Origin: Spirochaetota bacterium
GTDB lineage: Bacteria > Spirochaetota > UBA4802 > UBA5550
DNA: 64,000 bases
Reading direction: 5' to 3'
Assembly: GCA_003246895.1 (NCBI GenBank)
Contig: QKCL01000036.1
Span: 62,001 to 126,000, forward strand
The position numbers were made by a program, and so were the translations under genes. The notes beneath the pieces are model-generated. The model had not been told where the DNA came from. It saw only the letters and a list, made by a program, of their open reading frames with translations, and searched no databases. How positions within the stretch are numbered: position 1 is the first letter of the stretch; each line of letters begins with the position of its first letter. This document shows, one piece after another, positions 22,055-23,265 of this stretch.

Positions 22055-22094
22055 GACCTTGCACTTACAGTATGGACCTTGCACCTACAGTACA
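22055..22094. repeat. 20-bp tandem duplication before the NimA-like gene
   Basis: GACCTTGCACTTACAGTATG is followed directly by GACCTTGCACCTACAGTACA, 17 of 20 bases identical. It lies immediately upstream of a 20-bp perfect palindrome. Confidence 0.6.
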
Positions 22095-22701: not shown

Positions 22702-23265
22702 ATGTATAACATGGCAGAGAAATTCAGAAAAAGATACAGGATAGAATCAGTCCGGTTAAAGGGCTGGGATTACAGTCGATGTGGTGCATATTTTATAACT
22801 ATTTGTACCCGGGATATGGAAAATTATTTTGGCAGTATAGAAGATGGTAACATGGTTTTGTCCGATGTGGGTAAAATCGCAAACCGCGAATGGTTTAAAA
22901 CACCGGATATTCGTTCCGATATGAATTTGACATTAGGGGAATTTATTGTAATGCCGAACCATGTTCATGGGATCATAATCATTGGTGAAAATCGTTATAA
23001 TTCCCGAACCGGCACGGGTAGAGACGCAATGCATTGCGTCTCTACCCGTGCCGACGCAAACGTCGGTCGTTTCGGACCGCAATCGAAAAACATTGCATCA
23101 ATAATCCGTGGATATAAATCGGCCGTAACGATTCATTCCCGTAAAATCAAATCCGATTTCGCATGGCAGGCACGTTATTACGACCACATAATCCGTGATG
23201 AAAAAACGTTCAGAAAAATATCATGTTATATCCGCAATAACCCTTCTAAATATGCAGGAACATAA
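22702..23265 (+). CDS. REP-associated tyrosine transposase (RAYT, Y1/IS200-like)
   Basis: 187 residues with the Y1 HUH-nuclease pattern: RLKGWDYSRCGAYFITICTR, the metal-binding MPNHVHGI (HUH) and the catalytic tyrosine in WQARYYDHIIRDE, followed by KISCYIRNNPSKYAG. RAYTs are single-copy relatives of IS200 transposases that mobilise REP palindromes. Here a 42-bp perfect palindrome lies inside the gene and is read through in frame (NSRTGTGRDAMHCVSTRADA), between the HUH motif and the tyrosine. No family ends (IS200-type hairpins) flank the gene. Confidence 0.9.
   Translation: MYNMAEKFRKRYRIESVRLKGWDYSRCGAYFITICTRDMENYFGSIEDGNMVLSDVGKIANREWFKTPDIRSDMNLTLGEFIVMPNHVHGIIIIGENRYNSRTGTGRDAMHCVSTRADANVGRFGPQSKNIASIIRGYKSAVTIHSRKIKSDFAWQARYYDHIIRDEKTFRKISCYIRNNPSKYAGT
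23011..23066. repeat. REP-like element: 42-bp perfect palindrome plus a second hairpin, within the RAYT gene
   Basis: Positions 23011-23052 are a perfect palindrome whose left arm is GGCACGGGTAGAGACGCAAT plus G. It is followed, overlapping by two bases, by CCGACG-CAAA-CGTCGG (23051-23066). A palindrome with GTAGAGACGCAATG arms next to a smaller stem is the layout of REP elements. Confidence 0.8.

Follow-up and report, generated by a model that had tools for sequence, protein, structure and literature searches.

A RAYT gene of a Spirochaetota bacterium with an in-frame REP palindrome, and the joint divergence of such palindromes and their enzymes

TnpA-REP proteins, or RAYTs, are described in part of the text of PMC8266576 as binding and cleaving single-stranded REP hairpins at adjoining CT sites, with GTAG as a key element, and the same text indicates that the choice of REP by these enzymes has been worked out for only a few of them. 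The closest described relatives of the gene reported here belong to subclass 2.4 of Quentin et al. (2018; PMC6006769), which the sections of that paper on the subclass characterize by the motifs NH[IFV]H, WQ, and YIxNNP together with double-foot REPs. According to those sections, the REPs sit within the gene, inserted between HuH and Y without a frameshift, and the resulting extension is thought to be peripheral and of little effect. Two further systems are relevant. Nunvar et al. (2010; PMC2817692) described RAYT-REP coevolution in Stenotrophomonas and other gammaproteobacteria, and Di Nocera et al. (2013; PMC3733652) described intragenic GTAG/CGTC REPs, in a paper whose text also names the Rickettsia palindromic elements and notes that the REPs of some families lie within palindromes.

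The gene studied here lies at 22702..23265 on the forward strand of the window, by which we mean the whole 64,000-nucleotide stretch that was analysed. It is an intact open reading frame of 187 amino acids that is assigned to the RAYT/TnpA-REP-type Y1 HUH transposases on the basis of the reading frame itself, profile scores, an AlphaFold model, and a PDB match. Motif searches and alignment place the HUH motif NHVH at residues 86-89 (22957..22968, forward strand), a WQ motif at residues 155-156, and the catalytic tyrosine motif YIRNNP at residues 176-181 (23227..23244, forward strand), so that the RAYT call of the first-pass annotation is borne out. The protein resembles both the NCBIfam equivalog model NF047646 REP_Tyr_transpos (59.1 bits, E 4.3e-16; cut-off 80) and the Pfam model Y1_Tnp PF01797 (20.1 bits over residues 131-180; gathering cut-off 23) without passing either. 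With a profile built from 39 relatives, the top PDB sequence match is E. coli TnpA-REP 4er8 (E 1.5e-8), and the best PDB fold match of the AlphaFold model (mean pLDDT 86) is again 4er8, a structure of the E. coli enzyme with a REP hairpin; the fold match to this entry and to IS200-type transposases is clear. The only run of at least three residues with pLDDT below 50 covers residues 104-122 (23011..23067, forward strand), a predicted disordered loop that the model places between strand 87-94 and helix 131-146 and that coincides with the palindrome described below. Upstream of the gene, two 20-nt tandem repeats that are 85% alike occupy window positions 22055-22094.

An inverted-repeat search revealed, in frame between the HUH and tyrosine motifs, a perfect palindrome of 44 bp (23010..23053) made of two 22-nt arms with no loop. 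The longest arm in 20 Markov-shuffled windows was at most 13 nt, and the stretch folds with a z of -7.8 as DNA and with -50 kcal/mol and a z of -7.3 as RNA. The palindrome and its position had been correctly noticed in the first-pass annotation, but its length had been given there as 42 bp. At its centre is a 28-bp double-foot REP core, GTAG...CTAC (GTAGAGACGCAATG/CATTGCGTCTCTAC; 23018..23045), which is identical in the RAYT of a Bacteroidales MAG (L007), and this core is flanked by locus-specific outer arms of 8 bp on the left (CGGCACGG; 23010..23017) and on the right (CCGTGCCG; 23046..23053). An adjoining short hairpin (23051..23066, forward strand; 6-bp stem and 4-nt loop), which had also been called REP-like, was rejected as a second REP: it has no GTAG head and is indistinguishable from chance, as the window holds 38 hairpins of that size. 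The earlier observation is thus partly confirmed, and its interpretation, that the palindrome is of the kind on which the enzyme acts and that the gene may target its own message or DNA, is partly supported.

Judged by these features, the window gene fits a TnpA-REP (RAYT) of the subclass 2.4 type, a class for which in-gene REPs have already been published. It has the expected motifs, its core is of the double-foot form, with GT[AG]G on the 5′ side and C[TC]AC on the 3′ side, and the REP lies in frame within the variable insertion that separates HuH from Y. In contrast to the units described for subclass 2.4 in the available portions of that paper, however, the window gene has no flanking REP within 400 bp, its REP bears locus-specific outer arms, and its core is unique in the draft genome. 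Palindromes with an arm of at least 11 were sought within 400 bp on either side of the gene and none was found, and the gene is therefore not filed as a canonical REPtron.

The resemblance to the other systems is also partial. The elements described by Di Nocera et al. (PMC3733652) are GTAG-tagged palindromes in frame within genes, some families of which are reported within larger palindromes, but the host genes that their text describes are unrelated, whereas the host gene here is the presumed enzyme of the element. Joint divergence of enzyme and REP is shared with the RAYTs of Nunvar et al. (PMC2817692), in whose account the REPs flank the gene in REP-rayt-REP units, while here the REPs are inside the gene, the divergence spans phyla, and a residue-base rule emerges. 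The kind of gene is already described, and the parts worth following are the co-divergence across phyla and this rule. Rickettsia palindromic elements are likewise palindromic DNA found in frame in coding sequences, with many unrelated target genes, but, unlike the REP of the present gene, they are not known to have a transposase of their own.

When 198 genomes of the phylum were searched with a 14-row profile, RAYTs of the same kind turned up in 40 of them, as 59 ORF pieces of which 44 were of full length. When an internal palindrome was defined by an arm of at least 11 with at most one mismatch, 30 of the 44 full-length RAYTs had one between HUH and Y, compared with 6 of 2200 codon-shuffled regions, and the other 14 lacked it; in addition, 4 carried one ahead of HUH and 1 behind Y. 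The number of mismatches in the best 14-pair palindrome was bimodal (n = 44), with 0-1 in 29, 2-3 in 2, and 4-6 in 13 sequences, and these 13 resemble shuffled sequence, with recognisable relics in a few. Thus a gene has either an almost flawless palindrome or none, and this among proteins of which many share only half of their residues. The internal cores of this sample are read in frame 0 in 21 cases, in frame 1 in 8, and in frame 2 in 1, the choice of frames being limited by the TAG within the GTAG foot.

Several individual loci deserve mention. In L297, at position 2714, the stop codon of the ORF is the TAG of a REP GTAG foot. The RAYT of L208 (G181:C12:322700-325300) has two perfect internal palindromes, with lengths of 62 and 64 bp; one is placed between HUH and Y, the other behind the tyrosine motif. 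In the L055 RAYT, one internal REP encloses at its centre another that differs from it slightly. Spread on plasmids or phages was considered and rejected, as relatives were few (4 of 72,556 plasmid and 1 of 50,697 phage records), with 2 loci in viral contigs.

We show that, in these comparisons of sequences, core and enzyme vary together across phyla, and that they do so at the DNA level, whatever the reading frame. A second RAYT set had been fetched partly with the insert peptide TGRDAMHC, and the main statistics were therefore computed again on the phylum sample. Before pooling for the Mantel test and the residue-base rows, the window-locus repeats, L005, L086, L095, L010, and L054 were left out, and the Mantel test took the 54 of 66 core-bearing rows with a core of exactly 28 bp. 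Core similarity follows protein similarity with a Mantel r of 0.518 (n = 54 RAYTs), of 0.589 in the 24 RAYTs of the unbiased phylum sample, and of 0.517 in the 30 RAYTs of the set fetched partly with the peptide, none of which was reached in any of 2000 permutations. For pairs with a protein identity of 0.55-0.65 (n = 24), the identity of the core is 0.90, that of the gene is 0.63, and third codon positions agree in 44%. Moreover, identical cores occur in 7 protein pairs with 51-58% identity, and in two of these, the window gene (L177) with L007 and L178 with L179, they stand in different reading frames, which indicates that it is the DNA and not the peptide that is kept. Shared descent alone could be the source of this co-divergence.

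A more specific association appeared when the columns of the alignment of 66 RAYTs were scanned against the bases of the core. One column was outstanding: residue 14 (window numbering), which lies four residues N-terminal of the invariant Arg18 in the RAYT alignment, against base 5 of the core, which directly follows GTAG. The discovery rows comprised 27 with Ile and A, 29 with Arg and G, 3 with Asn and G, 5 in all with Thr, Lys, Leu, or Val and A, and 2 with a gap. The window gene has Ile14 (codon 22741..22743, forward strand), the residue that predicts A at base 5 across the family. Held-out loci were scored on the best palindrome inside the ORF or within 500 bp, which was feasible for 30 of 76 candidates, the unscored loci being those without a palindrome within 500 bp or without the residue 14 column; the rule was correct in 28 of 28 rows with Ile or Arg, and the other 2 rows had Val with A. 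A recount with one ORF per locus gave 29 held-out rows. For comparison, when any GT[AG][GA] site near the ORFs was taken as a control, the rule fitted 271 of 588.

Both traits are present in 93 rows, and in all of these they agree. On a tree from which the columns around residue 14 were omitted, each changes 9 times, and their distribution over the 93 rows is the same, so both change together; well-supported branches carry 3 of the 9 independent contrasts, which is too few for significance. Changes can be seen in several instructive pairs, for instance between L055 (Asn, G) and L052 (Ile, A), which are 62% identical, between L043 (Asn, G) and L011 (Ile, A), and between L182 (Asn, G) and L179 (Ile, A), both pairs being 56% identical. 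Columns 22, 157, and 158 also correlate with core bases, which may reflect descent. Guanine can be bonded by both arginine and asparagine. The rule is not stated in the accessible portions of PMC8266576 or PMC2817692, and among the titles and abstracts searched none announces it. These patterns suggest that the sequence of the enzyme can serve, across phyla, to predict the palindrome and even an individual base within it.

It is therefore pertinent to ask what the palindrome might be to the enzyme. We consider it probable that the internal double-foot REP is of the type that the enzyme itself recognises, that is, its cognate substrate. This had been proposed in the first-pass annotation, and it gains indirect support from the co-divergence of the internal cores, from the residue-base rule, and from copies outside the gene: of the 35 phylum loci that have an internal core, 15 also have a core-like copy outside the ORF, as against 2 of 103 swapped pairings. 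In the set fetched partly with TGRDAMHC the figures are 13 of 38 and 6 of 112, and the matches among these swapped pairings are a point on the other side. It is plausible that the gene targets its own DNA. For targeting of its own message, which had been suggested in the same breath, we find nothing in support; the enzyme class acts on single-stranded DNA in the account given in part of PMC8266576.

Copies in the host itself are a different matter. The window core is single-copy in its 3.57 Mb draft genome of 95 contigs, and the search for its arms that had been recommended at the outset recovered no other palindromic copy in the host, only one single-strand match with 1 mismatch; among relatives, G012 has 10 copies of the palindrome type. 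There is thus no second genomic copy, but neither do all homologues carry the insert as ordinary protein sequence, given that 14 of 44 lack the palindrome and that the same DNA is read in different frames. That the genome has neither a second copy of the core nor a REP flanking the gene counts against the substrate reading, as do the 14 relatives without the palindrome, and activity of the predicted enzyme in the window host is at most putative. A second RAYT relative in the same genome (contig C50) has an internal palindrome of another sequence, GTGGGGAACGCAGATCTGCGTTCCCTAC; members of the family of this palindrome are scattered over 12 places in the genome at up to 2 mismatches, variants included.

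A possible course of events may be outlined. The palindrome would have arrived through the activity of the enzyme class on single-stranded DNA, would be tolerated because the protein can do without this loop and because two of the three reading frames are open, and might be renewed or kept perfect by that same activity. Whenever the locus became single-stranded, as in replication, the gene's own palindrome would serve as a substrate. A lone gene entering a new genome, as here, would bring its substrate along and could act at its own locus in that state, either cutting there or being cut. A broader proposal, which we hold to be evenly balanced, is that this class of RAYT is self-labelled: each gene would maintain within its own frame a copy of the hairpin that its enzyme recognises, residue 14 would read base 5 as the one visible position of a code, and enzyme-substrate pairs could be read from single genes even where the genome has no other copy. 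If the internal palindromes are indeed cognate substrates, many such pairs become readable in this way, and a single transferred gene could found a REP family in a new genome.

The strongest rival, to which we give slightly less than even credence, is that the palindrome is a neutral passenger, a REP that settled in a permissive loop, as REPs do in other genes, and does nothing for the enzyme, a view also taken by Quentin et al. (2018). The loop is predicted to be disordered and dispensable, REPs in other genes have been reported in the available text of PMC3733652, and 14 of 44 relatives manage without the palindrome. However, two-thirds of the RAYTs carry it in nearly perfect form and almost always between HUH and Y, and the cores are far more alike than the genes around them, a pattern that recurrent landing by the cognate enzyme would nevertheless also produce. 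Rather unlikely, in our opinion, is the opposite extreme, in which the gene gains from its own substrate because enzyme and REP are transferred together and can seed a REP population. Consistent with such selection are the window gene itself, a lone copy with a perfect internal REP, the identical cores in RAYTs of different phyla, and G012, where the same core type has its 10 copies dispersed, but no seeded copies are present in the window genome. Selected and passive carriage rest on shared evidence.

An RNA hairpin that limits or regulates the expression of the transposase would agree with the very stable predicted fold of the transcript, but we think it very improbable, as the palindrome is located in the middle of the gene and such a role leaves its sequence match to the enzyme type and to the dispersed copies unexplained. 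Hardly credible is the view that GRDAMHCVST is simply a conserved peptide and the palindrome a by-product, which was rejected because, although translation runs through the palindrome without leaving the frame, both in the window gene and in the full-length phylum ORFs, the same 28-mer in different frames gives different peptides, palindromy is bimodal and far above that of codon shuffles, and the loop has low confidence in the AlphaFold model.

The core is not always the whole of the palindrome. In some genomes, locus-specific perfect inverted repeats flank the cores, with length limits that are specific to the genome and often sharp: the arms reach 14 bp before a sharp drop in G027 (21 copies), about 11 bp in G036 (11 copies), and 8 bp in the other REP family of the window genome (9 copies), whereas they are longer and less sharply limited in G012 (10 copies) and mixed in G193 (15 copies). 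Arms are absent in G035 (6 copies) and G028 (9 copies), apart from single copies of each with arms of no more than 6 bp, and in 19 of 20 RAYT-internal copies, the exception being the one G193 copy among them. A rule by which the length of core plus arm is a multiple of three was tried and fails in RAYT-internal copies. Besides the window palindrome, armed cores are found at L098, L106, L121-L136, and L172-L174 in G027, at L257-L267 in G036, and at L087, L090-L095, L137, and L138 in G012.

Three origins were weighed for these arms, namely insertion into existing hairpin loops, fold-back copying of the flank at insertion, and later template switching. Insertion into loops agrees with the presence in G012 of 57 REP-less CCCTCTCC hairpins, of the kind that flanks some of its REPs, with one G027 copy positioned at the loop of a hairpin repeat that is itself dispersed, and with an orthologous acyl-CoA dehydrogenase site at which G072 shows nothing but a terminator-like hairpin and each of three congeners has a REP core of its own. 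On the other hand, the arms abut the core without leftover loop bases, and their lengths stop sharply. An empty-site search for L093 found no same-genus locus outside its own genome, and a G036 locus orthologous to L126 lacks the REP, but its intergenic stretch fails to align. The acyl-CoA dehydrogenase site, behind the gene of that name, is represented by L295, L302, L303, and L304 in four species of one genus, of which G132 and G207 have common flanks and a different core. Finally, the dispersed hairpin family CCCTCTCC-loop-GGAGAGGG occurs in 57 places in G012 and in 14 places in G002, and some of its copies appear to be interrupted by a REP.
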